Shown here: in pieces, positions 30,887 through 49,616 of the stretch
Layout: each line of letters starts with the position of its first letter
Numbering within the stretch: the stretch's first letter is position 1
Assembly (NCBI RefSeq): GCF_008725655.1
Contig: NZ_VYXP01000007.1
Span: 107,001-171,000 of the forward strand
DNA: 64,000 bases
Direction of reading: 5' to 3'
Source of the DNA: Marinihelvus fidelis
GTDB lineage: Bacteria; Pseudomonadota; Gammaproteobacteria; Xanthomonadales; SZUA-36
Notes under the pieces: model-generated
Told to the model about the DNA's origin: nothing
The model's database searches: none
What the model saw: only the letters and a program-made list of their open reading frames with translations
Made by a program: the position numbers and the translations under genes

Positions 30887-31579
30887 ATGAGTTACAGCGA
30901 CCTGAAAGAAGCGGCCTGGGCGGCCAACATGGAACTGAACGAACGTGGCCTGGTGTTGTACACCTGGGGCAATGTCTCGCAGATTGACCGCGATGCCGGT
31001 GTGCTGGCGATCAAGCCCAGCGGCGTGTCTTACGACAAGCTCACGGTGGATGACATGGTCGTCGTTGACCTGGACAACCAGGTCGTTGAGGGCAAGCTGA
31101 AGCCGTCCTCGGACACCCGCACGCACACGCACCTGTACCGGCATTTCGAAACCATCGGCGGCATCACGCACACGCATTCGACCCACGCCACGGCCTGGGC
31201 GCAGGCGCAGCAACCTATCCCGTGCTTCGGCACCACGCACGCGGATTACGCCTACGGCGAGATTCCGTGCACGGCGGTGATGCGCGACGAGCAGATCGAG
31301 CGCGACTACGAGGAAGAGACCGGCGTGCAGATCACCGAGGCCTTTGCCGGGCGCAACCCGGTGGAGACCCCGATGGTCATCGTCGCCGGCCACGCGCCCT
31401 TTACCTGGGGCAAGGACGCGGCGGAGTCGGTTTACAACGCGGTGGTGCTGGAGGAGGTCGCGCGCATGGCCCTGTACACCCGCATGATCGACCCGACGCG
31501 CGGGCCGCTGAAACAGGCCATCGTCGACAAGCACTACCTGCGCAAGCATGGCAAGAATTCCTATTACGGCCAGGGCTGA
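30887..31579 (+). CDS. araD: L-ribulose-5-phosphate 4-epimerase
   Basis: 230 aa class II aldolase-fold epimerase. Start ATG 30887, seven bases after the kinase stop. Zinc-binding histidines are in GGITHTHSTHATAWAQ, and GNVSQIDRDAG and KPSGVSYD match the family phosphate-binding motifs. It converts L-ribulose 5-phosphate to D-xylulose 5-phosphate, which enters the pentose phosphate pathway. Full family length. Confidence 0.94.
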   Translation: MSYSDLKEAAWAANMELNERGLVLYTWGNVSQIDRDAGVLAIKPSGVSYDKLTVDDMVVVDLDNQVVEGKLKPSSDTRTHTHLYRHFETIGGITHTHSTHATAWAQAQQPIPCFGTTHADYAYGEIPCTAVMRDEQIERDYEEETGVQITEAFAGRNPVETPMVIVAGHAPFTWGKDAAESVYNAVVLEEVARMALYTRMIDPTRGPLKQAIVDKHYLRKHGKNSYYGQG

Positions 31580-31615
31580 CGGCACTGGCGTACTGCATTC
31601 CGGAGAAAGACAGAC

Positions 31616-33121
31616 ATGAAGATTTACGGTGACAAGACCATCTGGTTCGTGACCGGCTCGCAACATCTTTACGGGCCGAAAGTCCTTGAGCAGGTGGCGA
31701 AGAACAGCCAGGCCATCGCCGACGGCCTGACGGCTTCCGAGCACGTGTCCGCAAAGGTCATCGCCAAAGAGGTGGTGAAGACACCGGGCGAGATCCACGC
31801 CATTTGCCGCGAGGCCAACAACGACCCGGATTGCGTCGGCCTGGTGCTGTGGATGCACACCTTCTCGCCGGCCAAGATGTGGATTGCCGGGCTGCGCGCG
31901 TTGAACAAGCCATGGATGCACTTGCACACCCAGTTTGGCGCCGAACTGCCTTGGGCCGACATCGACATGCACTACATGAACCTTAACCAGAGCGCCCACG
32001 GCGACCGGGAGTTCGGCCACATCGGCACGCGCCTGCGCATCGACCGCAAGGTGGTGGTCGGGCACTGGCAGACCGAGTCCGTGCAGCGGCAGATGGATGA
32101 CTGGATCCGCGCCGCGATGGGCTGGGACGAAGCGCAGAACCTGGTGGTGTCACGCTTCGGCGACAACATGCGCCAGGTCTCCGTCACCGACGGCGACAAG
32201 GTCTCGGCGCAGATCCAGTTCGGCTACGAGGTCAACGCCTGGGGCCTGGGCGACCTGGCGAAAGTGGTCGATGCCGTCAGTTCCGAGGACATTGACGCGC
32301 AGATCGAGGTTTACAAGGATGATTACGAGATCGACGCGTCCGTATTTGACGACACTGACAAGCTGGAATTGCTGCGAAACGAGGCGCGACTGGAACTGGG
32401 CATGGAGCGTTTCCTTTCCGAGCGCGGTTCCATGGCCTTCACTAACTGCTTCGAGAACCTGACCGGCCTGTCCGGCCTGCCGGGCCTGGCCACGCAGCGG
32501 CTGATGAGCCGCGGTTACGGTTACGGCGGTGAAGGCGACTGGAAGACCGCCGCCATGGTGCGCATCGTCAAAGTGATGTCGAAGGGCCGCGAGGGCGGCA
32601 CCAGTTTCATGGAAGACTACACCTACGATTTCGGTGCCACCGACCAGGTGCTGGGCGCGCACATGCTGGAGATCTGCCCGTCGATTGCCACCGAGCCGAA
32701 GGCGAAGGTCGACATCCAGCTGCACACCATCGGCATCAAGAAGGACATCGCGCGGCTGTTGTTCTCCGGCGCCACGGGCCCGGCCATGAACATCTCCAAG
32801 ATCGACCTGGGCACGCGCTTTCGTATCGTGGTCAACGAACTGGACACCGTCGAGGCGCCGGCCGAGATGCCGAACCTGCCGGTGGCCAAGGCGCTGTGGG
32901 TGCCGCGCCCGAACCTGGAAGTGTCCGGTGCGTGCTGGATTCACGCCGGCGCCGCGCACCACAGCTGTTACACGCAGGGCATCACCCTGGAGCAGCTGGA
33001 GGACTTTGCCGAGATTGCCGGGGTCGAGCTGGTGGTGATCGGCGCCGACACCAACGTGCGCGAGTTCAAGAAGGAACTGCGGCACAACGCGGTGTACTAC
33101 CACCTGGAGAACGGTGTTTAA
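31616..33121 (+). CDS. araA: L-arabinose isomerase
   Basis: 501 aa, full length for the family. It starts [20 protein letters not shown], a diagnostic AraA opening, and keeps the catalytic regions ([27 protein letters not shown], and the late histidine in [10 protein letters not shown]). It interconverts L-arabinose and L-ribulose with a divalent metal in the cytoplasm. It lies 36 bases after araD with GGAGAAAGA upstream, and its stop is overlapped by the next gene's GTG. Confidence 0.97.
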
Positions 33122-34796
33122 ACACCGCGCTGAGCGTACGAAACCCAATGTGCCAGGCCGCCCGGCCTGGCCCGGTCGCCTGTTGACGGCCCTGGTGGCC
33201 GTGCTGGCTGCGGGCAGTACGACCGCCCAGTTCACCGACGTCACCGTCCACGACCCGTCCATCGTCAAGGTGGACGACACGTACTACATCTTCGGCTCGC
33301 ACCTGGCCGCGGCCAGGTCCACCGACCTGGTGCACTGGACCCGTTTCGCCGAGGGCGTGAACCCCGGCAACCCGCTGTTCGTGAACCCGGTGACCGAGTT
33401 GCAGGACCTGTTCGACTGGTCCGGCACGGTGGGGCTCTGGGCCAACGACGTGCGGCAGCTGGATGACGGCCGCTTCTACATGTACCCAAACCTGTCGGCC
33501 AACACCGAGCCGCGGGCATCGCTGTCACTGGCCATCGCCGATGACATCGAGGGGCCGTACACCTACCAGGAAATCTTCCTGCAGTCCGGCATGTGGGGCG
33601 AGATCAGCGAGGACGGCGAGAACATCTACGAGCCGCGCGACCACCCCAATACCATTGATCCGCACGTGTTCTACGACCGTTCCGGCGAGCTGTGGATGGT
33701 CTACGGCTCGTATTCCGGTGGCATTTTCATCATGCGCATGGACCCGGTGACCGGCCTGCCCGCGCCCGGCCAGGGTTACGGCAAGCACCTGTGGGGCGGC
33801 AACCATGCCCGCATCGAGGGGCCGTTCATGCTCTACAGCTGGGACACCGGCTATTACTACCTGTTCGTCACCTTCGGTGGGCTGGACGCCGTAGGCGGCT
33901 ACAACATGCGCGTCGCCCGGTCACGGCGCCCGGATGGTCCTTTCCTGGACGCGCTCGGCAACGACATGGCCGAGGTGAAGTCCGATCCGTCGCTGCCACT
34001 GTTCGATGATGAAAGCATTGAGCCTTTCGGCCAGAAGCTTATGGGCAACTTCCGGTTCCGCCGCAAGGACGGCGAACCGGGTGCCGGCAGCGGGCATGGC
34101 TATGTCTCGCCCGGGCACAATTCCGCGATTTACGAACCCGCGCTGGATAAATATTTCCTGGTCTTCCACACCCGCTTCCCCAACCAGGGCGAGTTTCACC
34201 AGGTGCGCGTGCACGAGTTCTTCCTGAACGCTGACGGCTGGCCGGTGGTCGCCCCGCATCGTTACCTGCCGGAGAGCGGGCCGGGTTCGCTCGGTTTCGG
34301 GGCGGGAGACGCTTCGCTGACGAGTTTCCCGCCGCGCAAGGGGCTGGCCGACCCGTGGGAGCAGGGCGCCTGTGTCCGGGCGATGCACTGCAAGCCGGCA
34401 CCCGCACGTAGCGCGGCTGAACTGGCCGGTGACTACAAGTTCATCAACCACGGCAAGGCGATTTCTGCGGCCATTGTCGAGTCGACGCTGCTGGTACTGA
34501 ATGCCGATGGCTCGCTCGGCGGCGCCCACACCGGCCGTTGGGCCAGCCAGCCCGGGGAGCGGCTGGTGCTGGACCTCGATGAGGTTGGCCTGTTCCAGGG
34601 CGTGGTCTCGCGCGGCTGGAATGAAACGGCCGACCAGTACGTGATGACCTTCACGGCACAGTCCGTGGAAGGCATTTCCGTGTGGGGCAGCCGCATCGAA
34701 TACGAAGGTGGTGAATCGAATAACCAGCCGAGCGCGGCCGGGGTCACTCGACCGACCCCCGCTGTACTCGGCCACAAGAGGCTCAAACAACAATGA
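33114..34796 (+). CDS. Exported GH43 arabinanase-like enzyme with C-terminal domain
   Basis: 560 aa from GTG 33114, overlapping the araA stop by eight bases. A signal peptide follows a basic N-region ([19 protein letters not shown]). The GH43 five-blade domain covers about residues 40-400. Catalytic residues are the base D47 (VHDPSI), the second aspartate in [10 protein letters not shown], and the acid glutamate in [11 protein letters not shown]-terminal domain (about 430-545, starting [12 protein letters not shown]) is of the type found in endo-arabinanases. It likely cuts alpha-1,5-L-arabinan in the periplasm or outside. Overlaps the symporter start by four bases. Confidence 0.88.
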
Positions 34797-36175
34797 AGAC
34801 ACAAAAACTGACCGTGATCGAGAAGATCGGTTTCGGCGCCGGCGACATGGCCGTGAACGTGGTGATCTCGTCGATGTTCCTGATCGTCTCGTTCTTCTAC
34901 ACCGATATCTTCGGCCTCAAACCTGCGCACATGGGCATCCTTTTCCTGGCCACACGCCTGATCGACGCGTTCACCGACCCGATGATGGGCATGCTCACCG
35001 ACCGCTGGAAGTCCGAACGCTTCGGCCGCTTTCGGCCGTACTTCCTGTACCTGTCAGTGCCGTTCGGCATTTCCGTTTTCCTGATGTTCACCACCCCGGA
35101 CTGGGACTACGGCGCCAAACTGGTGTGGGCCTACGCCACCTACATCCTGGTCACGCTGATGTTCACCTCGGTGACCATTCCGTACATCTCACTGATCGGC
35201 GTGCTGACGGCCGACCCGCAGGAGCGCCTGTCCGCCAACGGTTACCGGCTGTTTTTCGCCAAGATCGCGGCGCTGATGGTCACCAGCGCGGTGCCGGTGC
35301 TGGCGGCGGCCTGGGGTGGTGATGACCTGGCGCGTGGCTACCAGCTGGCCATGGGCCTGATGGCCGGTATCGGCACGCTGATGTTCCTGTTCTGTTTCGC
35401 GACCACCACCGAGCGCGTGGAGCACGAGGTGGAGACCAAGCCTTTCGGCGAACAGGTGCGACTGCTGTTTCGCAATGACCAATGGCTGATTCTCTGCGGC
35501 GTGTGTCTGACCGGCACGCTGGGCTACGTGATCCGCGGCTCCGTGGCGGCCTACTACGCCAAGTACTACCTGGCCGGCGACGAGAAGATTATCTCCGCGT
35601 TCCTGACCACCGGCGTGGTGGCGGCCATCCTGGCGATGATCGCGTCCACGTGGATCACCAAGCGGTATTGCAAGGTGCAGCTGTTCCGCTGGAGCCAGCT
35701 GGCGGTCGGCGTGCTGAGTGTCGTGCTGTACTTCGCCGTCGGTGGGCCGGACGACATCATGTTGGCCTTCATGCTGTATTTCCTGCTGTCGTTCGTCGTC
35801 GACCTGCACGCGCCGGTGTTCTGGTCGGCGATCGCCGAGGCGGTCGATTACGGCCAGGCCAAGACCGGCAAGCGTGTTTCCGGCCTGGCGTTCGGCGGCA
35901 TCTCGTTTTTCCAGAAGGCCGGCATGGGCCTGGCCGGCTTCGTGGTCGGCATGCTGCTGACGTTCTACGGTTTCGAGGCCAATGTCGAGCAAACCGAACG
36001 CTCACTCGCCGGTATCGCGCTGATGCTGTCGATCATCCCCGCCGTTTTCCACGTGGCGATGGGTCTGCTGATGTTCGGCTACCGCATCACCGACAAGTAC
36101 TACAACGACATGAAGTCCAAAGGCCTGATCGAAGACGAGGCGCCGGAGTACATCACGGAGATGCCGCCATCATGA
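34793..36175 (+). CDS. GPH-family sugar:cation symporter
   Basis: 460 aa, twelve predicted helices, MFS_2 type. Beginning TVIEKIGFGAGDMAVNVVISSMFLIVSFFYTDIFG, and the DRWKSERFGRFRPY loop, are characteristic of the glycoside-pentoside-hexuronide family. It probably brings arabinose or short arabino-oligosaccharides across the inner membrane. Both ends overlap the flanking GH43 genes by four bases (ATGA), so the three are translationally coupled. Confidence 0.92.
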   Translation: MKTQKLTVIEKIGFGAGDMAVNVVISSMFLIVSFFYTDIFGLKPAHMGILFLATRLIDAFTDPMMGMLTDRWKSERFGRFRPYFLYLSVPFGISVFLMFTTPDWDYGAKLVWAYATYILVTLMFTSVTIPYISLIGVLTADPQERLSANGYRLFFAKIAALMVTSAVPVLAAAWGGDDLARGYQLAMGLMAGIGTLMFLFCFATTTERVEHEVETKPFGEQVRLLFRNDQWLILCGVCLTGTLGYVIRGSVAAYYAKYYLAGDEKIISAFLTTGVVAAILAMIASTWITKRYCKVQLFRWSQLAVGVLSVVLYFAVGGPDDIMLAFMLYFLLSFVVDLHAPVFWSAIAEAVDYGQAKTGKRVSGLAFGGISFFQKAGMGLAGFVVGMLLTFYGFEANVEQTERSLAGIALMLSIIPAVFHVAMGLLMFGYRITDKYYNDMKSKGLIEDEAPEYITEMPPS

Positions 36176-37116
36176 ACAAGCTCGAACCACTGATCCCGCA
36201 ACGCGCGGACCCGTACATCCACAGGCACACTGACGGCTGGTACTACTTCACGGCCTCGGTACCGGCCTACGACGGCATCGAACTGCGCCGCGCGCGCACC
36301 ATCGCCGGGCTGGCGGAAGCTGACACCGTGATGGTCTGGCGCAAGCCCGATGAAGGCCCGTACAGCGATCTCATCTGGGCGCCCGAAATTCACTTCAACC
36401 AGGGTGCCTGGTACGTGTATTTCGCCGCCGCGCCGTCGCGCGAGATCAAGGACGACCTGTTCCAGCATCGCATGTACGCGATCTCGACGCCGGCGGATAA
36501 CCCGCTGGAAGGCGAGTGGACCTTCGAGGGCCGGATCGAGACCGGCATGGACACGTTCTGCCTGGACGCGACCACGTTTACCCACAACGGCGTGCTGTAT
36601 TACCTGTGGGCGCAGAAAGAGAGCGGCATCCGCGGCAATTCCAACCTGTACATCGCACCGATGGCCGACCCGGTGACCCTGGCCGGCCCACCCGTGCGCC
36701 TGACCATTCCCGAGTACGACTGGGAAATTCAGGGTTTCTGGGTGAACGAGGGCCCGGCGGTGGTGAAACACGGCGGCCGCATCTTTATCACCTACTCGGC
36801 CAGCGCCACCGACGAGCGTTATGCCATGGGCCTGCTGTGGGCTGATACGGAAGCTGACCTTCTGGACCCGGCGAGCTGGTCGAAATCTCCGGAACCGGTA
36901 CTGACCAGCAGCCCGGATAACGATATCTTCGGCCCCGGTCACAACAGCTTCACCGTGGCCGAGGACGGCGAAACCGACATGCTGGTCTACCATGCCCGCA
37001 CCTACACCGAGATTGAGGGCGACCCGCTGTGGAACCCGGACCGGCACACCTTCGTGAAGCCGCTACGCTGGGGTGAGGACGGCATGCCGATCTTTGGCGA
37101 CGCGGCCTTCGCATGA
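36172..37116 (+). CDS. Cytoplasmic GH43 alpha-L-arabinofuranosidase-like enzyme
   Basis: 314 aa from ATG 36172, overlapping the symporter stop. There is no signal peptide. GH43 catalytic motifs are present: RADPYIHRH (base), CLDATTFTHNG (second Asp) and VNEGPAVVKHGG (acid). It is closely similar in motifs and order to the exported enzyme at 40763-41770. Lacking export and placed directly behind a symporter, it likely trims imported arabino-oligosaccharides to arabinose. An upstream extension of the frame lies inside the symporter and is not real. Confidence 0.87.
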   Translation: MNKLEPLIPQRADPYIHRHTDGWYYFTASVPAYDGIELRRARTIAGLAEADTVMVWRKPDEGPYSDLIWAPEIHFNQGAWYVYFAAAPSREIKDDLFQHRMYAISTPADNPLEGEWTFEGRIETGMDTFCLDATTFTHNGVLYYLWAQKESGIRGNSNLYIAPMADPVTLAGPPVRLTIPEYDWEIQGFWVNEGPAVVKHGGRIFITYSASATDERYAMGLLWADTEADLLDPASWSKSPEPVLTSSPDNDIFGPGHNSFTVAEDGETDMLVYHARTYTEIEGDPLWNPDRHTFVKPLRWGEDGMPIFGDAAFA

Positions 37117-39548
37117 GCACAGGGGTCAGAGTAAAGGGACAGAGTAAACCCCACCGATTTTCGCGGATGAGGGGGCTGTTACTGGGTTTACTCTGTCCCT
37201 TTACTCTGACCCCTTCACTCCTGCTGGCCGACGTCAGCTACTTCCTGCTCGACCAGGTTCGCTTGCTGGACGGCCCGTTCAAGGCCGCCCAGGACCGCAA
37301 CATCGACTACCTGCTGGCGCTGGAACCGGATCGCTTGTTGGCGCCCTACCTGCGCGAGGCCGGCCTGGAGCCGAAGGCGCCGACCTACGGCAACTGGGAA
37401 GGCTCCGGCCTGGACGGCCACATCGGCGGTCACTATGTCAGCGCGCTGGCCCTTGCAGTTGCCGCCACTGGCCGCGACGACATGCGCCAGCGACTGGACT
37501 ACATGCTCACCGAGCTGAAGCGCGCCCAGGACGCCAACGGCGACGGCTACATCGGCGGCGTGCCCGAAAGCAACCGGCTGTGGGGTGAAATCCGCCGCGG
37601 CGACATCAACGCCGACCTGTTCAGCCTGAATGGCGGCTGGGTGCCCTGGTACAACATCCACAAGACCTTCGCCGGCCTGCGCGACGCCTACCTTTACACC
37701 GATTCACCTCTGGCCCGCGAAATGCTGATCGACTGGGCCGACTGGGCCGCGGCGCTGGTCGAGGAACTCAGCGACGAGCAGGTCCAGGCCATGCTGCGCT
37801 CCGAGCACGGCGGCCCCAACGAGGTGTTCGCCGATGTTTACGCCATCACCGGCGATGAAAAATACCTGGCGCTTGCGCGGCGCTTTTCGCACCGGCTCAT
37901 TCTCGACCCACTGCTGGCGGAAGAGGATCAACTGACCGGCCTGCACGCCAACACGCAGATTCCCAAGGTGATCGGCTACCAGCGCGTGGCCGAGGTGGCC
38001 AACGACGATGACTGGCACGACGCGGCCACGTTTTTCTGGGACACCGTGGTCAACGGCCGCAGCATCGCCATCGGTGGCAACAGCGTGCGCGAGCACTTCA
38101 ACCCGCGCGACGATTTCAGCAGCATGATCGAGGACATCGAGGGCCCGGAAACCTGCAACACCTACAACATGCTGCGCCTGACCCGGCAACTGTTCGGCGC
38201 CGAGCCGCAGATGCGCTATGCCGACTACTACGAGCGCGCGCTGTACAACCACATCCTCGGTTCACAGGACCCGCAAACCGGCGGCCTGGTGTACTTCACG
38301 CCGATGCGCCCGCAGCACTACCGCGTGTATTCGCAACCGGACCAGGCCATGTGGTGCTGCGTCGGTTCGGGCATCGAGAACCACGTGAAGTACGGCGAGT
38401 TTATCTACGCGCACGACGACGACGGCAATGAACACAAGCTGCTGGTGAACCTGTTTATCCCCTCGCGGCTGGAATGGCCGGAGCAGGGCGTCGTCATCCG
38501 CCAGGAGACCCGTTTTCCGGATGAGTCCGCCACGCGCTTGGTGTTCGAAACCGATGCGGCCATCACGCTGGCGCTGCGCTACCCAACATGGGCAACCGCC
38601 ACCCAGCGGGAACTACAGGTCAACGGCGAACCCGTCACCGTCTACGCCGCACCCGGCGAGTACATTGATCTAAAGCGAACCTGGAAAGCCGGCGACACGG
38701 TCACGCTGGCGCTGCCGATGAAAGCCCACCTGGAACCCCTGCCGGACGGCTCACCGTGGAACGCCGTGCTGTACGGCCCCATCGTCCTGTCCGCGCCGGT
38801 CGACCCGTTCGAAGACGAGACGCTGGACTTCCTCGCCGACGACAGCCGCATGGGCCATATCGCCGCGGGCGCACAGTGCCCGCTGGAAGAATCGCCGATG
38901 CTTGTCACCGGTGCCGGCGGCTTGCCTGAGGCGCTGCAGCGACTGCCTGGCGACGAACTGCGCTTCCAGGCCCCCGGCGCCATCGAGCCCAAAGAATACG
39001 CGGGCCTGGAGCTGATCCCGTTCTTCCGCGTCCACCGTACCCGCTACATGGTCTACTGGCCGTCGGGAACGCCATCCGAACTGCAGGCCATGATGACCCG
39101 AAACGCCTACGCCGAAGCCGCGCGCCTGGCGTTGCTGGATGCCACCATCGACAGCGTCAACCCCGGCGAACAGCAGCCCGAGGCCGAGCATGACCTGGAA
39201 GGCGAGGGCATGGACGCCGGCGTCAACTTCAACCGCCACTGGCGCCACGCGACCGGCTGGTTCGGTTACCGCCTGGCCGACCCGGAAAACGAGGCGCGCT
39301 GGCTACGAATCACCTACTGGGGCGCGGACGCCGGCCGCAGCTTCAGCATCCTGCTCAATGGTGAGAAAGTCGCCGCCGTCACGCTGAAAGGCGAACACGG
39401 CGCGGTGTTCCACGATGTCGACTACCCCATCCCCGACACCGCGCGCGCCGCGGCCGATGGCGAGTACACCCTACGCTTCGAAGCCGCCAAGGGCTCCATC
39501 GCCGGCGGCATCTACGGCGTGCGCCTGTTAAGCTCGATTCCGGACTGA
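37113..39548 (+). CDS. GH127 beta-L-arabinofuranosidase, signal peptide encoded by a repeat element
   Basis: 811 aa from ATG 37113, which overlaps the upstream stop; ATG 37167 is an equally plausible start. GH127 (DUF1680) catalytic set is present: E346 and C348 in ETCNTYN, and C415/C416 in WCCVGSGIENH, which together would hold the zinc and nucleophilic cysteine. The product releases beta-L-arabinofuranose, as found on plant extensins and some pectic side chains. The hydrophobic signal segment (LLLGLLCPFTLTPSLLLA) is mostly translated from the right arm of an inverted-repeat element. The mature enzyme begins at about DVSYFLLDQVRL. Length and ending are normal for the family. Confidence 0.88.
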   Translation: MSTGVRVKGQSKPHRFSRMRGLLLGLLCPFTLTPSLLLADVSYFLLDQVRLLDGPFKAAQDRNIDYLLALEPDRLLAPYLREAGLEPKAPTYGNWEGSGLDGHIGGHYVSALALAVAATGRDDMRQRLDYMLTELKRAQDANGDGYIGGVPESNRLWGEIRRGDINADLFSLNGGWVPWYNIHKTFAGLRDAYLYTDSPLAREMLIDWADWAAALVEELSDEQVQAMLRSEHGGPNEVFADVYAITGDEKYLALARRFSHRLILDPLLAEEDQLTGLHANTQIPKVIGYQRVAEVANDDDWHDAATFFWDTVVNGRSIAIGGNSVREHFNPRDDFSSMIEDIEGPETCNTYNMLRLTRQLFGAEPQMRYADYYERALYNHILGSQDPQTGGLVYFTPMRPQHYRVYSQPDQAMWCCVGSGIENHVKYGEFIYAHDDDGNEHKLLVNLFIPSRLEWPEQGVVIRQETRFPDESATRLVFETDAAITLALRYPTWATATQRELQVNGEPVTVYAAPGEYIDLKRTWKAGDTVTLALPMKAHLEPLPDGSPWNAVLYGPIVLSAPVDPFEDETLDFLADDSRMGHIAAGAQCPLEESPMLVTGAGGLPEALQRLPGDELRFQAPGAIEPKEYAGLELIPFFRVHRTRYMVYWPSGTPSELQAMMTRNAYAEAARLALLDATIDSVNPGEQQPEAEHDLEGEGMDAGVNFNRHWRHATGWFGYRLADPENEARWLRITYWGADAGRSFSILLNGEKVAAVTLKGEHGAVFHDVDYPIPDTARAAADGEYTLRFEAAKGSIAGGIYGVRLLSSIPD
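37121..37214. repeat. GGGGTCAGAGTA inverted-repeat element, copy 1 (inside the GH127 gene)
   Basis: A perfect 31-base inverted repeat: left arm 37121-37151 and right arm 37184-37214, around a 32-base loop. Arms contain AGGGGTCAGAGTAAAGGGAC. It lies at the very start of the GH127 gene and is translated. The same arm sequence family recurs at 43609 and 47915. Elements of this look are associated elsewhere with REP-associated tyrosine transposases; no transposase is in the window, so that link is inference. Confidence 0.88.
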
Positions 39549-39566
39549 GCCAACCCGGGAACACCC

Positions 39567-40718
39567 TTGCGTGAACTCAACCTGATCCGCCCCGGCCAGC
39601 TGGACTGGGTGGAAAAAGACGCCCCGACACTGCAGGGCCCAACCGACGCGTTGGTGCGCCCGTTCGTGGCAAGCCGTTGCGACGGCGATTCATTGCCCAT
39701 CAACCTGCACGGCCTGCGCCACCAGGGCATGCGCCTGGCCATGAACATCGGCGCCATCGACCCGGTGGTCGGCGACATCGTCGGCAAGGACCCATTCAAG
39801 GGCCCGTTCGGCATCGGCCACGAGGCCATCGCCCAGGTCACAGCCATCGGCGATGAAGTCACCAACGTGAAGGTTGGCGACACCGTGGTCGTTCCCTGGG
39901 CGATTTCCTGCGGCGAATGTTATGAGTGCAAGCTGGGCCTGACCGCCAAGTGCTCGACAATGGTGCCGACCAGCCCGGGAAAGACGCTGTGCTGCTTCGG
40001 TTTCGGGCCGAACTGCGGCGACTGGGGCGGAGTGGTCTCGGATTGCCTGCGGATCCCGAACGCCGACCATATGCTGGTGCGCGTACCCGACGGCGTCGAC
40101 CCGTTGCGTGTCGCCTCCGCCGGCGACAACCTCACCGACGCCTGGCGCACCGTCCACGGCCCTCTGCAGCAGCGCCCCGGCGGCAAGGTCATCGTCATTG
40201 GCGGCGGCGCCCACAGCATTGGCCTCTATGCCGCCGGCTTCGCCGTGCGCCTTGGCGCGGAACGGGTCGACTATTTCGACAGTGCGGACGAACGCCTGGA
40301 AGTGGCCGAAGGTTTTGGCGTGACCGCTCACAAGGTCGGCAAGTCCGACCGCCGCTCGCTGTTACCGAAAATCAGCGAACGCTACGACGTCGGCGTCGAG
40401 GCCTCGTCCACCACCCAGGGCCTGCGCGACTGCCTGCGCGCCCTGCGCCCGGGGGGCATCTGCACCGGCACCGGCTACTACCTGTTCAAGGACACCCGGC
40501 TGCCGGTCATGGACATGTACGCCAAGAGCGCCTCGCTGCACGTCGGCGTCTCGCACGTACTGCCGCACCTGCCGGAAATGCTGGATTTCATCGCCCGAAC
40601 AGGCTTTGAAGCCGAGCGCGTAACCTCGGTGCTGGCGGACTGGGACGACGCGGTGGAGGCCTATGCGGCTCGGACGACGAAGGTGGTTTTAAAACGTGAT
40701 CCGCTAAACATGGCTTGA
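39567..40718 (+). CDS. Zinc-dependent medium-chain alcohol dehydrogenase
   Basis: 383 aa starting at TTG 39567, 18 bases after the GH127 stop. Structural zinc cysteines are in SCGECYECKLGLTAKC, the catalytic region in GIGHEAIAQV, and the NAD(P) fold at VIVIGGGAHSIGLYAAG. A polyol or aldose such as arabinose or glucose is a reasonable substrate given the operon, but no specific activity can be assigned. It is the last gene of the forward operon and is convergent with the next GH43 gene. Confidence 0.85.
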   Translation: MRELNLIRPGQLDWVEKDAPTLQGPTDALVRPFVASRCDGDSLPINLHGLRHQGMRLAMNIGAIDPVVGDIVGKDPFKGPFGIGHEAIAQVTAIGDEVTNVKVGDTVVVPWAISCGECYECKLGLTAKCSTMVPTSPGKTLCCFGFGPNCGDWGGVVSDCLRIPNADHMLVRVPDGVDPLRVASAGDNLTDAWRTVHGPLQQRPGGKVIVIGGGAHSIGLYAAGFAVRLGAERVDYFDSADERLEVAEGFGVTAHKVGKSDRRSLLPKISERYDVGVEASSTTQGLRDCLRALRPGGICTGTGYYLFKDTRLPVMDMYAKSASLHVGVSHVLPHLPEMLDFIARTGFEAERVTSVLADWDDAVEAYAARTTKVVLKRDPLNMA

Positions 40719-40762
40719 GGGTGCCTTGGTACAAAGCGTCTTCTGCATATCGCAGACAGCAC

Positions 40763-41770
40763 TCAATCTCCAAACTCCTGCCCAAACACCGGAAACCCCT
40801 CCTCATCCCATTCAAGCACCCGCGCCCTTGCATGGCGGTTCGGGTCGGTCAGTGGCGTACCGCGCAGGTCGCGGTAGTCACGGGCGTGGTAGATCAGCAG
40901 GTCGGTGACGCCGTCCTCGGCGATCGTGAAAGAGTTGTGGCCGGGGCCGTAGCGGACCAGGGCGTCGTTGGTGGTGAACACGGGTTCTTGTGACTTGTGC
41001 CAGCTGGCGGGGTCGAGCAGGTCGGCGTCTTCATCGGCCCAGAGCAGGCCCATGGCGTAGCGGTGGTCGGTGGCGGCGCCGGAGTAGGTCATGAAGATCT
41101 TGCCGTTGCGCTTGATGACCGCGGCGCCCTCGTTGACCTTGTAGCCCTGGATTTCCCAGTCCAGCGTGGGCTCGCTGATGATGACGGGCTCGCCGGTGAT
41201 GGAGGTCGGGCTGTCCATTTCGGCGATCCACAGCGCGGAGTTGTACGTACGCTCGGCGTTCTGCTGGGCCCAGACGTAGTAGCGCTTGCCGCGGTGCTCG
41301 AACTGGGTGGCGTCCAGGCTGAAGGTGTCCAGGCCGGTCTCGAAGCGGCCTTCCTCGCTCCAGTTGTCGGTGAACGGGTCGTCGTCGGGGTTGGACAGCG
41401 TGTACATGCGAATGCTGAACGGCTGGTCCTTCTCGCCGGCGGCGAAGTACACGTACCAGGCGCCGTCGATGCGGTGCAGCTCCGGGGCCCAGATGTTGAT
41501 ACTCATGGGGCCGGACTCGCGCTTGCGCCAGATCACCTTTGGCTCGGCGATCTTCAGGTCGTTCAGGCGGCAGGCCTGGCGGATCTCGATGCGGTCGAAC
41601 TCGGGCGCGCTGCCGATGAAGGTGTAGCAGCCGGTGTCGGGGTCACGGTGGATCCACGGGTCGGCGCGCTGCGGGACGATGGGGTTGTCGATGTTCAGGG
41701 TGTCGGCGTTGGCCGGGACAGGAATGATCGCGACCAACGCGAACAGGGTCAGGATGATTCGAATCGACAT
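40763..41770 (-). CDS. Exported GH43 alpha-L-arabinofuranosidase-like enzyme
   Basis: 335 aa from ATG 41770, which gives a clean signal peptide (IRIILTLFALVAIIPVPANAD). GH43 motifs RADPWIHRD (base), SLDATQFEHRG (second Asp) and VNEGAAVIKRNG (acid) are in the same order as the cytoplasmic enzyme at 36172-37116. The two are paralogues separated by location. It is divergent from the GH43 gene at 42580, with a toxin-antitoxin pair between them. Confidence 0.87.
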   Translation of the reverse strand: MSIRIILTLFALVAIIPVPANADTLNIDNPIVPQRADPWIHRDPDTGCYTFIGSAPEFDRIEIRQACRLNDLKIAEPKVIWRKRESGPMSINIWAPELHRIDGAWYVYFAAGEKDQPFSIRMYTLSNPDDDPFTDNWSEEGRFETGLDTFSLDATQFEHRGKRYYVWAQQNAERTYNSALWIAEMDSPTSITGEPVIISEPTLDWEIQGYKVNEGAAVIKRNGKIFMTYSGAATDHRYAMGLLWADEDADLLDPASWHKSQEPVFTTNDALVRYGPGHNSFTIAEDGVTDLLIYHARDYRDLRGTPLTDPNRHARARVLEWDEEGFPVFGQEFGD

Positions 41771-41800
41771 GCCTGGCGCTCCATTGGTGATTTCAATCTC

Positions 41801-41810
41801 GATTCTACCC
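41801..41810 (+). repeat. 10-bp direct repeat flanking the Phd/PIN module (left copy)
   Basis: GATTCTACCC at 41801-41810 is repeated at 42547-42556 on the other side of the toxin-antitoxin pair, and both copies are followed within a base by GT. It could be a target duplication from insertion of the module, or a shared regulatory sequence. Confidence 0.45.
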
Positions 41811-41901
41811 CGTACAGTCAGCGGCAAGCAGGTGACCATCACGAATAGTCACTTGATGGGCTATACTCAGATGACCACATATGATGACCATGGTGTACGA
41901 C

Positions 41902-42138
41902 ATGGAGTCACGGCAGGTTTCAAAATCGAAATTCAAGGCGCGCGCGCTGGAACTGTTTCGCGAAGTTGAGGCTTCGGGCAAGCCAGTGATCGTGACGGAC
42001 AAAGGTAAACCGGCCATCGAGATTCGTCGTTACAGGGGCGATGAACGATCGCCGCTGGAGAAGTTGAAAGGCACGGTGATTGCCTTTGAGGATCCGACCG
42101 AACCCGTTGGCGCAGAGGACTGGGAAGCGCTGGATTGA
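41902..42138 (+). CDS. Phd/YefM-like antitoxin
   Basis: 78 aa from ATG 41902 (GGTG six bases upstream; ATGs at 41881 and 41890 are alternatives). The opening SRQVSKSKFKARALELFREVEASGKPVIVTDKG is typical of Phd antitoxins, which bind their own promoter and wrap the toxin with a disordered C-terminus (here PLEKLKGTVIAFEDPTEPVG). It overlaps the PIN gene by four bases. A TATACT -10-like hexamer lies at 41862-41867. Confidence 0.88.
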   Translation: MESRQVSKSKFKARALELFREVEASGKPVIVTDKGKPAIEIRRYRGDERSPLEKLKGTVIAFEDPTEPVGAEDWEALD

Positions 42139-42536
42139 TTGTTCTCGATACCCATGCGCTGGTCTGGTGGGTACATGCCGACACGCAACTGTCGTCCGCC
42201 GCGCGCAAGGCGATCAGGGCGGAGACTCGCGCAGACGAAGGGCTGATCGTGGTTTCAGCCATTTCAGCGTGGGAAATTGCCTTGTTGGTGGAGAAAGGGC
42301 GGTTGACCCTGAGCATGAGCGTTGATGACTGGATGGAAGCCGTTGCCGAGATCGAGTCTGTCCGCATAGTCCCGGTTGATGCCGTGGTCGCGATTCAGTC
42401 GACCCGGTTGCCCGGCGAGATTCACCCAGACCCTGCTGACCGCATGATCATTGCGCTGTCGCGCCACCTGTCGGCACCATTGGTGACTGCGGATGGACGA
42501 ATTCGCGCTTACAAACACGTTAAAACAATCTGGTAG
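42135..42536 (+). CDS. PIN-domain toxin (VapC-like RNase)
   Basis: 133 aa from TTG 42135, overlapping the antitoxin stop. PIN acidic residues are visible: LDTHALVWW (first Asp), SAISAWEIALL (Glu), and the late DPADRMIIALSRHLSAPLVTADGRI (two Asp). Such proteins cut specific RNAs. Paired with a Phd-type antitoxin, it forms a complete type II module. It stands in the gap between two divergent GH43 genes. Confidence 0.9.
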   Translation: MIVLDTHALVWWVHADTQLSSAARKAIRAETRADEGLIVVSAISAWEIALLVEKGRLTLSMSVDDWMEAVAEIESVRIVPVDAVVAIQSTRLPGEIHPDPADRMIIALSRHLSAPLVTADGRIRAYKHVKTIW

Positions 42537-42579
42537 GCCCGGGTGAGATTCTACCCGTTGGTTTGCCGAGGAGGCTCTG

Positions 42580-43608
42580 ATGATTCTTGAGCGTTTAGCG
42601 CTGCTTTTGGCCATGTGCCTGTCCACGAACGCCTTGGCCGTCCAGGTCGAAGTCCACGACCCGGTGATGGCGAAGGAAGGCGACCACTACTACGTGTTCA
42701 GCACCGGGCCCGGCATCACCATTTACCAGTCCGAAGACCTGGAGCACTGGCGCTGGGTGGGCCGCGCGTTCGACGGTGAGCCGGACTGGGCGCGCGAGGT
42801 GGTGCCGGATTTCAGCGGCCACCTGTGGGCGCCGGACATCTTCGAGCACGACGGCAAGTGGTATCTGTACTACTCGGTCTCCGCCTTCGGCAAGAACACT
42901 TCGGCGATGGGCGTGACTGTGACCGATACGCTGGACCCGTCGTCGCCGGACTATGGCTGGAAGGACCTGGGTTTGGTCATCCAGTCGGTGCCGCACCGCG
43001 ATGACTGGAATGCCATCGACCCGGCCATTGTTGAAGACGACGCCGGCGGCGTGTGGCTGAGCTTCGGTTCGTTCTGGGGCGGCCTGAAAATGTTCCGCCT
43101 GGACGAGACCCTGGCCGCACCGGCAGAACCGCAGGCATGGGCCAGCATTGCTGCGCGGCCGCGGGATACAGCGACGCCCGGCGAGCAGGCCGGCGTTGGC
43201 GCCATCGAGGCGCCGTACATCTTCAGGAAGGACGGCTGGTACTACCAGTTCGTTTCCTTCGACCTGTGCTGCCGCGGCATGAACAGCACCTACAACGTGC
43301 GCGTGGGTCGGTCGAAAGATGTCACCGGGCCCTACCTTGACCGCGACGGCGTGTCGTTGATGGAGGGCGGCGGTACGCTGGTGATCGAGGGCAACGACAA
43401 CTGGGTGGCCGTGGGCCACAATGCTGCCTACACCTTCGACGGTCAGGACTGGCTGGTGCTGCACGCCTATGAGACCGCCGACAACGCCAAGCAGAAATTG
43501 CGCATCCTGCCGATCAGCTGGGATGACGGCTGGCCGCAGGTCGACCCCGCCGACCTGGATCGCCGTACGACCGAGCTGGTGGGCGAGGGCCCTCCAGAGA
43601 ACAAGTGA
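42580..43608 (+). CDS. Exported GH43 endo-1,5-alpha-L-arabinanase-like enzyme
   Basis: 342 aa with a signal peptide (LERLALLLAMCLSTNALAV). The start has GAGGAGG upstream. GH43 motifs: base VHDPVMAKEG, second aspartate NAIDPAIVEDD followed by WLSFGSFWGGLKMF, and acid GAIEAPYIFRKDG. The extended arabinanase-type loop CCRGMNSTYNVRVGRS supports endo-arabinanase. Periplasmic or secreted. A repeat element follows its stop directly. Confidence 0.88.
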   Translation: MILERLALLLAMCLSTNALAVQVEVHDPVMAKEGDHYYVFSTGPGITIYQSEDLEHWRWVGRAFDGEPDWAREVVPDFSGHLWAPDIFEHDGKWYLYYSVSAFGKNTSAMGVTVTDTLDPSSPDYGWKDLGLVIQSVPHRDDWNAIDPAIVEDDAGGVWLSFGSFWGGLKMFRLDETLAAPAEPQAWASIAARPRDTATPGEQAGVGAIEAPYIFRKDGWYYQFVSFDLCCRGMNSTYNVRVGRSKDVTGPYLDRDGVSLMEGGGTLVIEGNDNWVAVGHNAAYTFDGQDWLVLHAYETADNAKQKLRILPISWDDGWPQVDPADLDRRTTELVGEGPPENK

Positions 43609-43701
43609 TGGGGTCAGAGTAGGGGGTCAGAGTAAATCTCTACTTCTTGCTCTTAACCCGACGATCTTGCGGATTTACTCTGACCCCCTACTCTGACCCC
43701 A
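43609..43701. repeat. GGGGTCAGAGTA inverted-repeat element, copy 2 (between two GH43 genes)
   Basis: Perfect 30-base inverted repeat: left arm 43609-43638, right arm 43672-43701, loop 33 bases. The left arm begins at the base after the upstream GH43 stop codon, and the right arm ends beside AGGAG, the ribosome site of the next GH43 gene. The arms differ from copy 1 in the second half (TAGGGGGTCAGAGTAAATC), yet each copy's arms match each other exactly. Confidence 0.9.
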
Positions 43702-43712
43702 GGAGTTACGTC

Positions 43713-44666
43713 ATGATCAAACTGACCCGAATCACGCCCCTGGCGCTGGCCCTGGCCGCACCCTCGGCGCTGGCCGACAACCCCATCATCACCGACATGT
43801 TCACCGCCGACCCGGCCGCGCTGGTCGACGGCGACACGGTGTGGCTCTACACCGGCCACGACGAGGCGCCCAACAACGACGTGTTCTTCGAAATGCACGA
43901 CTGGCTCGCGTTCTCGTCGCAGGACATGGTGAACTGGAAAGCGCACGGCCCGATCATGCGCGCCGATGACTTCGAGTGGGCCGTCAGCCATGCCTGGGCG
44001 TCGCACATGGTGAAAAAGGACGGCAAGTACTGGTTCTACACGACCGTCCGTCACGATGAAACCAAACCCGGCTTCGCCGTGGGCGTGGCGGTCTCCGATT
44101 CGCCGACCGGCCCCTTCAAGGATGCGAAAGGCGAAGCGCTGATCACCAACGACATGACCACCCAGACGCCCAACGACTGGGACGACATCGACCCGGCCGT
44201 CTGGATCGAGGACAACGGCGACACCTACCTGTTCTTCGGCAACCTGGTACCAAAGTACGTGAAGCTGAAGGACAACATGATCGAGCTGGACGGCGAGATC
44301 CAGGTCATCGATGTGCCGCATTTCACCGAGGCGCTGTGGGTGCACCGTAAGAACGACGTCTATTACCTGACCTACGCCTGCTACTTCCCGGAAAAAATCT
44401 GCTGGGCGCGCAGCGACAGTGTCGAGGGGCCGTGGCAGTACGGCGGCATCCTCAACGAGATCGCCGGCAACACCGAGACCAACCACCAGTCGGTCATCGA
44501 GTTCCAGGGCAAGGACTACTTCATCTACCACACCGGCGGCCTGCCACCGCAGGGCGACCAGCCCAGCGGTGGGCGGTTCCGGCGCTCGGTGGCCATTGAC
44601 CGCTTGTACTACGAGGACAATGGTGATCTGAAACGGGTGATCATGACCACCGAGGGCATCGAGTAA
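43713..44666 (+). CDS. Exported GH43-like enzyme
   Basis: 317 aa from ATG 43713 with AGGAG upstream and a signal peptide (LTRITPLALALAAPSALAD). GH43 motifs: base FTADPAALVDGD, second aspartate DDIDPAVWIEDNG and acid glutamate FTEALWVHRKND. The subtype includes xylosidase/arabinofuranosidase enzymes; here the setting favours arabinose side chains. It is convergent with the GH2 gene. Confidence 0.87.
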   Translation: MIKLTRITPLALALAAPSALADNPIITDMFTADPAALVDGDTVWLYTGHDEAPNNDVFFEMHDWLAFSSQDMVNWKAHGPIMRADDFEWAVSHAWASHMVKKDGKYWFYTTVRHDETKPGFAVGVAVSDSPTGPFKDAKGEALITNDMTTQTPNDWDDIDPAVWIEDNGDTYLFFGNLVPKYVKLKDNMIELDGEIQVIDVPHFTEALWVHRKNDVYYLTYACYFPEKICWARSDSVEGPWQYGGILNEIAGNTETNHQSVIEFQGKDYFIYHTGGLPPQGDQPSGGRFRRSVAIDRLYYEDNGDLKRVIMTTEGIE

Positions 44667-44676
44667 CGGCGGACGG

Positions 44677-48022
<3,346 letters not shown>

Positions 48023-48032
48023 ACCACTCCGG

Positions 48033-49616
48033 TTACGGGTCCAGCAGGATCACGCTGACCGAACGCGGCGGCAGGCTCACTTCCAGCGAATCGCCGTCCA
48101 GGTTCACGTCCAGGCCCGTGGGCTTCACCGTTTCGGGTGAGTCGAACGTGTTGTGCGCGTCGATAGAGGCACCGGTCAGTACTCGCGCCTCGGCGGCGTC
48201 GGCGCTGAAGCCTTCCAGGTCGATATCAATATCGATGGCATCCGAGGCATGCAGGTTCACCAGGCCGATGGCCAGCTTGCCGTCGGTGGTCAGCGCGGCG
48301 GTGGCCGAGACGTGCGGCACGCTCACGTCACCCACTTCGTAGTCCGGCACGCCGTCCAGTTCCAGCGGCAGGTAGGTCGCGTCCTGGAACGGGATGTACA
48401 GCTCAAACGCGTGGTAGGTCGGCGTCTTGATCATCTTTGGCCCATCGGTCAGCAGCACCGCCTGCAGCACGTTCACGGTCTGCGCGATGTTGGCCATGTG
48501 CAGCCGTTCGGTGTGCTCGTGGAAGACATTGAAGTTCAGCGCGGCCACCAGCGCATCGCGGATGGAGTTCTGCTGTTCCAGGAAACCCTGCGTGCTGCCC
48601 GGGGTCGGGTCATACCAGGTGCCCCATTCATCGAGGTAGATGCCGACCTGGCCATCCGGGTCATTACGCTCCAGCACTTCTTCCTGCAGGTTCAGGTGGC
48701 CGTCGACCATCAACGTGCGGTCCAGCGTGGAGATCCACTCGGCCTCGGGGAAGCCGGTGGCCTGGCCTTTCTTGCCCCAATCGCCAGTGGGCAAGGTGTA
48801 GTAGTGGTGCGAGATGCCGTCGATCTTGAAGAACATGCCGGCATCGGTGGTGCCGCCGGACAAGGCCTCGGTCCAGTCGGTGGCGTCGTTCTGGCCGCCG
48901 CTGGCCACCAGTTTGGGCATGTAGCCCGAAGGCGCCTTCAGGAACGTCGCGTAACGGCGGTACAGGTCGGTGTAGTACGCCGGCGTCATGTTGCCGCCGC
49001 AGCCCCAGGTCTCGTTGCCGACGCCCCAGAAGGCTACTTTCCAGGGCTCTTCGCGGCCGTTGGCGCGGCGCTCTTTAGCCAGTGTGCTGTTGTCGTCGGC
49101 GGTCATGTACTGCAGCCACTGGGCCATGTCGACGGGTGGCGCGCTGCCGATGTTGCCGGCGATGTAGGCCTCGCTGTCCAGCATCTCCACCAGTTGCATG
49201 AACTCGTGTGTGCCGATGCTGTTGTCCTCTTCCACCCAGCCCCAGTGGGTGTTGATGCGCACCGGGCGATCCTCGCGCGGACCGATGCCGTCGCGCCAGT
49301 GATACTCGTCGGCGAAGCAGCCACCGGGCCAGCGGATCACCGGGATCTTCAGCGGCTTCAGCGCCTCGATCACGTCGTTACGGAAACCGCCCGTGTTGGG
49401 AATGTCGGAGTCCTCGCCGACCCAGATGCCCTCGTAGAGGCCGCGGCCCAGGTGTTCGGCAAACTGGCCGTAAAGGTACTTGCTGATGGTGTCGCCGGGT
49501 TCATCGGCACGGATGGTCATTTCGACGTCGGCTAACGCGTTACCGGCGATGCCGCCGGACAGGGCCAGCAGGCCCACGCAAAGCCCACGCGTGAGTTTTT
49601 TGGGGTTGAGCGTCAT
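48033..49616 (-). CDS. Exported GH51 alpha-L-arabinofuranosidase
   Basis: 527 aa from ATG 49616, chosen for GAGGAGA upstream and a signal peptide (LTRGLCVGLLALSGGIAGNALAD). The TIM barrel carries acid/base E202 (GNETWGCGG) and nucleophile E330 (YLDEWGTW), and a C-terminal beta-sandwich follows. It removes alpha-L-arabinofuranosyl side groups from arabinan and arabinoxylan. GH51 enzymes are often cytoplasmic; this one is exported. It precedes the GH2 gene on the same strand, separated by repeat copy 3. Confidence 0.94.
   Translation of the reverse strand: MTLNPKKLTRGLCVGLLALSGGIAGNALADVEMTIRADEPGDTISKYLYGQFAEHLGRGLYEGIWVGEDSDIPNTGGFRNDVIEALKPLKIPVIRWPGGCFADEYHWRDGIGPREDRPVRINTHWGWVEEDNSIGTHEFMQLVEMLDSEAYIAGNIGSAPPVDMAQWLQYMTADDNSTLAKERRANGREEPWKVAFWGVGNETWGCGGNMTPAYYTDLYRRYATFLKAPSGYMPKLVASGGQNDATDWTEALSGGTTDAGMFFKIDGISHHYYTLPTGDWGKKGQATGFPEAEWISTLDRTLMVDGHLNLQEEVLERNDPDGQVGIYLDEWGTWYDPTPGSTQGFLEQQNSIRDALVAALNFNVFHEHTERLHMANIAQTVNVLQAVLLTDGPKMIKTPTYHAFELYIPFQDATYLPLELDGVPDYEVGDVSVPHVSATAALTTDGKLAIGLVNLHASDAIDIDIDLEGFSADAAEARVLTGASIDAHNTFDSPETVKPTGLDVNLDGDSLEVSLPPRSVSVILLDP

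Follow-up and report, generated by a model that had tools for sequence, protein, structure and literature searches.

The stretch analysed here, called the window, comprises 64,000 nucleotides of Marinihelvus fidelis (NCBI RefSeq assembly GCF_008725655.1, contig NZ_VYXP01000007.1, positions 107,001 to 171,000 of the forward strand), and the subject of the analysis is a palindromic repeat element located at the junction of two glycoside hydrolase (GH) genes. The upstream cistron (36172-37116, plus strand) is a GH43 gene according to Pfam and the gene caller. Its TGA stop codon overlaps, in the arrangement ATGA, the ATG at 37113-37115 (plus strand), which is the upstream candidate start of an open reading frame (ORF) of 811 residues (37113-39548). 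The product of this ORF is a beta-L-arabinofuranosidase combining the PF07944 domain (5.8e-125) with three accessory domains (PF20736, PF16375 and PF20620). Its mature part (37230-39548, plus strand) starts with DVSYFLLDQ and its catalytic domain begins at residue 48. The initial annotation of this DNA had labelled the enzyme GH127. The catalytic domain is indeed of the GH127 type (PF07944), but the best match among solved structures is 5opj (E 1.6e-259), which we take to be the GH146 founder BT0349, whereas the GH127 enzyme HypBA1 gives only 5.9e-12. The term GH146-type is therefore more exact. BT0349 is described as the founder of GH146 in PMC10850190.

The element starts 5 nt past the GH43 stop codon. 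A repeat search of the window recovered a perfect inverted repeat with two 31-base arms (37121-37151 and 37184-37214) and a 32-base loop between them (37152-37183). These perfect arms are contained in extended arms (37111-37151 and 37184-37224) of 41 nt, which are 90% complementary and 32 nt apart. The ORF is open across both arms, and the initial description of a perfect repeat lying in frame at the gene start is thereby confirmed. In this frame the left arm reads GVRVKGQSK, the loop reads P-HRFSRMRGLLL and the right arm reads GLLCPFTLTP (codons 25-34, G25-P34). The right arm would form the hydrophobic core of the predicted signal peptide, as originally proposed, and is followed by SLLLA (37215-37229, plus strand), with a cleavage after A39 deduced by comparison with the outgroup signal peptides described below. 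The element had been credited with most of the signal peptide; this holds for the core, but the first codons, in the left arm, may or may not be translated. The 94-nt hairpin has a predicted RNA fold of -63.6 kcal/mol. No RNA-family match was returned by an Rfam search of positions 36900-48200, no sigma-70 promoter was found in the element, and its terminator-like hits on the minus strand amount to no more than matches to a consensus.

This element belongs to a repeat family. The sequence GGGGTCAGAGTA occurs 11 times in the window with at most one mismatch, for 0.13 expected, and the genome contains it 34 times, whereas the reversed control gave 0, counts that rule out a chance repeat; it is also present in 25 of the 41 genomes of the relatives set. 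A genus survey covered 69 elements from four genomes of the genus, and a family survey covered 65 elements from other genera together with further regions picked because an ATG precedes the right arm, the genes being called in these surveys with a home-made gene caller (L and G numbers below denote loci and genomes). The genus elements are built of 13-bp units (GGGGTCAGAGTAA) placed in inverted arms, in numbers that vary per arm. These units show variants (GGGTCAG, GGGACAG, GTGCCAG) and the loops are very different, while the arms within one copy are mutually complementary. The motif GGGGWSAS, here GGGGTCAG, is present in element copies. In addition, a Y1 tyrosine transposase gene of the same genome (G000:C10:57186-57518) is flanked on both sides by inverted copies (L091/L065), an arrangement found again in G001 (L061/L106) and at L057, L062, L063, L064 and L067. 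The repeat fits the published terminal inverted repeat (TIR) class of RAYT-like transposases, the TIRtrons with their GGGGWSAS motif (Di Nocera et al. 2013, PMC3733652).

The GH146-type gene is also present in three other species of the genus (86, 79 and 79% identity), and in all of them the element is found in frame at the same site, with a length of 92 bp in each of the four species. The insertion at the GH43/GH146 junction is old and fixed, and not an accident of one genome. What had been called a mobile hairpin is thus repeat-family DNA, but an old copy shared by four species. The arm codons are identical at 18 of 18 positions across these species, compared with 209 of the 512 same-residue codons of the mature part (1e-7 by a simple binomial that ignores relatedness). 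The loop and the flanks of the same element have diverged in the same way as the remainder of the gene. Orthologous intergenic elements, taken from the same species pairs, provided an internal control. They change faster, differing by whole units and loops, with lengths of 107/39, 91/52, 91/138, 99/70 and 81/170 bp. At several such sites (L084/L095, L088/L102/L143, L096/L133 and L124/L129) the number and the type of the units change between close species and the arms stay complementary. This turnover looks as if one arm had been copied from the other.

The nearest homologues found outside the genus are those of Gilvimarinus (60-62%). Their GH43-GH146 junction is devoid of the element and consists of an 80-93-nt spacer, in which GH43 is followed by a terminator-like hairpin and a T run. 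The corresponding enzymes carry an unrelated 20-residue signal peptide (e.g. MIRKLVLGIGLLWLSHTVQA) with the same end point as that of the genus. The comparison of homologues suggested as a check by the initial annotation thus gives an element-free outgroup with a different signal peptide, and on this basis the element-borne signal peptide appears to be derived. The hydropathy of the element-derived leader, by a hydropathy comparison only, is 2.0-2.1, for 1.8-2.3 in the outgroup signal peptides, and no fitting twin-arginine signal or lipobox was seen by eye.

It is probable that the repeat element at the GH43/GH146 junction became the signal-peptide core of the GH146-type enzyme and was held unchanged thereafter. 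A TIR-type palindromic element of the RAYT/TIRYT class would have settled in an arabinan/arabinose operon, between GH43 and the gene that follows it, no later than in the last ancestor shared by the four species. Its right arm would then have been read in the only frame that gives an open and hydrophobic peptide, supplying the core of a signal peptide through which the enzyme may be exported, and the original signal peptide would have been lost or overwritten. From that time on, the arms may have been frozen, the right arm by having to encode the signal peptide and the left arm by having to stay complementary, be it through selection on the hairpin or because one arm serves as the template for the other. 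Several points weigh against such a scenario. Coding alone is an insufficient explanation of the identity, which extends to the left arm and to synonymous sites; because these are unchanged, something beyond coding is needed, either a selected hairpin or arm-to-arm copying. The arm taken alone has two prolines and several threonines, and its hydrophobicity is below the usual. The species are few (four), with several genomes represented by drafts or metagenome assemblies. Finally, signal peptides are easily replaced and of low complexity, so that the ancestral state is not inferable in detail.

The same unchanged left arm and synonymous sites, together with the stability of the predicted fold, would also suit a hairpin retained for a role in RNA or DNA (as an mRNA stabiliser, attenuator or terminator), the signal-peptide reading being incidental. 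The preference of the elements for gene 3' ends points in this direction, 43 of the 69 genus elements lying within 15 nt of, or overlapping, such an end, as does the terminator present at the corresponding place of the outgroup spacer. Such a role is compatible with a repeat-read signal peptide. As a replacement for it, the proposal is unlikely, given that the frame is open and hydrophobic, that no alternative signal peptide is available and that the orthologous intergenic copies, one of them in the same cluster, change in length, units and loop; a hairpin role alone, therefore, does not freeze the sequence. Repeat families can also be homogenised, and in G005 numerous copies share the inner unit of the GH146 copy, which raises the question of a recent conversion of the arms by other copies, or of a recent transfer of the locus between species. 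However, the exact inner 16-mer AAAGGGACAGAGTAAA is found only in the GH146 copy in the M. fidelis genome, G001 and G002, where homogenisation by other copies is thus unlikely and conversion from them is ruled out, and the divergence of the loop and the flanks is that of the rest of the gene. This explanation is largely refuted and very improbable.

A published caution, according to which most repeats at annotated 5' ends lie outside the true gene (PMC3733652), would apply if the element were untranslated and the enzyme, started downstream, were cytoplasmic. The initial annotation had named a start downstream of the element as one of two results that would overturn its proposal. After the right arm, the first in-frame ATG, GTG or TTG follows at a distance of 49, 136, 88 and 244 nt in the four species, in each case at or beyond the point where the catalytic domain begins, and the stretch that separates the arm from this domain contains no conserved start codon. 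Since this domain begins at residue 48, translation of any product that combines the complete domain with a signal peptide includes the right arm. The signal peptides of the homologues, moreover, reach the same residue. A cytoplasmic enzyme is accordingly the least credible of these alternatives, with hardly any probability left to it.

Within the preferred explanation, that of a signal-peptide core read from the right arm, the position of the start codon allows two versions. Translation from the upstream ATG at 37113, coupled to the GH43 stop codon, is moderately favored. The frame is open from this pre-element ATG in all four species, the ATGA overlap joins it to GH43, and the offsets between the upstream ATG and the element (9, 24, 21 and 42 nt) are all multiples of three, although the latter is weak evidence. 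If the hairpin hinders translation at all, coupling to the GH43 gene through ATGA could overcome this. The other version, somewhat less probable, has only the right arm coding, with the start at the loop ATG (37167-37169, plus strand) and the left arm serving as leader RNA. With this start, the signal peptide would number 21 residues, nearly the same as in the outgroup (20); the codon-usage gene caller favors this version, which also finds a parallel in the locus L271 described below, where a loop start is preceded by GGAG. However, this ATG is conserved in three species and replaced by CTG in the fourth (G005), no Shine-Dalgarno-like sequence was found in the loop, and the codon would sit between the arms of a strong hairpin; the multiples of three seen upstream also count, weakly, against it.

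A second locus was detected in another genus. In L271 (1886-2440), the right arm is located at the N terminus of a gene, with FTLTP included in a putative signal peptide (MKKYLNRLFGVFTLTPFLLVASPIQA-EVTSV). The element directly follows the stop codon of the preceding gene, its left arm is degenerate, an ATG is present in the loop with GGAG upstream, and no fitting start follows the right arm. In 13 other family genomes the homologues of this gene have no element nearby, and those with a readable N terminus show other hydrophobic leaders, most of them ending at the same xA-EV. L271 would represent an independent second case of a repeat-read signal peptide. The use of the same frame at the GH146-type gene and at L271 fits the fact that this arm frame is open and hydrophobic, and the other frames not. 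Such a use is rare, with two loci among the more than 130 elements surveyed and the chosen regions, and most of the other elements preceding genes have the start codon downstream of the element. L136 was considered as a further case and ruled out, since an ATG further downstream begins a signal peptide of its own. It is conceivable, if rather doubtful, that the family carries a latent export signal, the terminal arm reading in one frame as (C)PFTLTP-SL with sufficient hydrophobicity for a signal-peptide core, and that junction copies in operons repeatedly become signal peptides whose sequence is then locked by complementarity and coding together. Were this the case, a single stretch would be at once a transposon end, an RNA hairpin and an export signal.

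Repeat-supplied export information had been presented as unusual, but a precedent exists. The RU-2/YPAL repeat encodes the signal peptide of YPO1552 in Yersinia (Delihas 2007, PMC2759123), and in that case also the homologues found elsewhere have unrelated signal peptides. It is a similar but weaker precedent: the Yersinia protein is a small putative exported protein of closely related strains, whereas the present case concerns a family-assigned enzyme in four diverged species, with a palindrome whose two arms have stayed unchanged, and a further case was seen in a different genus. The Rickettsia palindromic elements (RPE) are likewise found in frame within protein genes, as here in the GH146-type gene of four species, and nearly half of their copies lie within genes (PMC10969869, PMC3733652); they belong, however, to another sequence family and another bacterial group, and the copies described here are mostly intergenic, the coding case being a putative export signal. 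The resemblance to TIRtrons includes GGGGWSAS (GGGGTCAG), the inverted copies flanking an IS200/605-type tyrosine transposase gene, and the dimers and clusters. It does not include the copy read as a signal peptide and frozen across species, nor the tandem 13-bp units of the arms. The GTAG-tagged repetitive extragenic palindromes (REPs) are also palindromic repeats linked to RAYT transposases (PMC3733652), but the present elements have no GTAG end tag and longer arms made of repeated units. A REP of this type (20-40 bp palindrome, GTAG at one end) was ruled out, as the elements end with GGGGTCAG/CTGACCCC and are mostly 50-150 bp long. A literature search for RAYT repeats associated with signal peptides found nothing. 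Compared with known in-frame repeats, the new aspects are an enzyme of assigned family, conservation at the nucleotide level in four species, intergenic controls, an outgroup and a recurrence. The locus would be a clear example from nature of how a selfish palindromic repeat becomes a required part of a protein, and it makes testable both the function of a transposon end as a signal peptide and the initiation of ribosomes at or inside a 31-bp hairpin.

The GH146-type gene is present in only 4 of the 39 genomes of the family. The order araD-araA-transporter-GH43-GH146 (window 30887-39548) is common to Gilvimarinus (L146-L148), and the GH146 gene was not found in the other family genera sampled; together these suggest that the arabinan cluster may have been acquired by transfer.

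Some additional observations concern the elements in general. A neighboring gene ends inside the element in 19 of the 69 genus elements (L080-L144) and in 14 of the 65 family elements (L231-L290), often with GSE followed by the stop, and the GGGGTCAGAGTAA unit supplies a stop codon in one frame. The inner parts of many elements resemble bidirectional terminators (AAAAACGCC...GGCGTTTTT), for instance in the loops of L111, L112, L128 and L136, and native terminators at the 3' ends of genes may have been the cores around which the TIR arms grew. A complete element is found in frame in a DNA polymerase III alpha-type gene (L243:1441-1493, G011:C33; PHP, DNA_pol3_alpha), where it is read as GQSKGTECATLSLYSDP. 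It recalls the REPs reported in frame in dnaE and other genes (PMC3733652). The window contains a second copy of the element 1 nt past a stop codon (43610-43700) and a third between two minus-strand genes (47915-48022), both intergenic as initially stated. Three elements are thus gathered within 11 kb of the arabinan cluster (37121-48022), whereas the entire 3.4-Mb genome has about 15, and each of the three is located at a gene junction.
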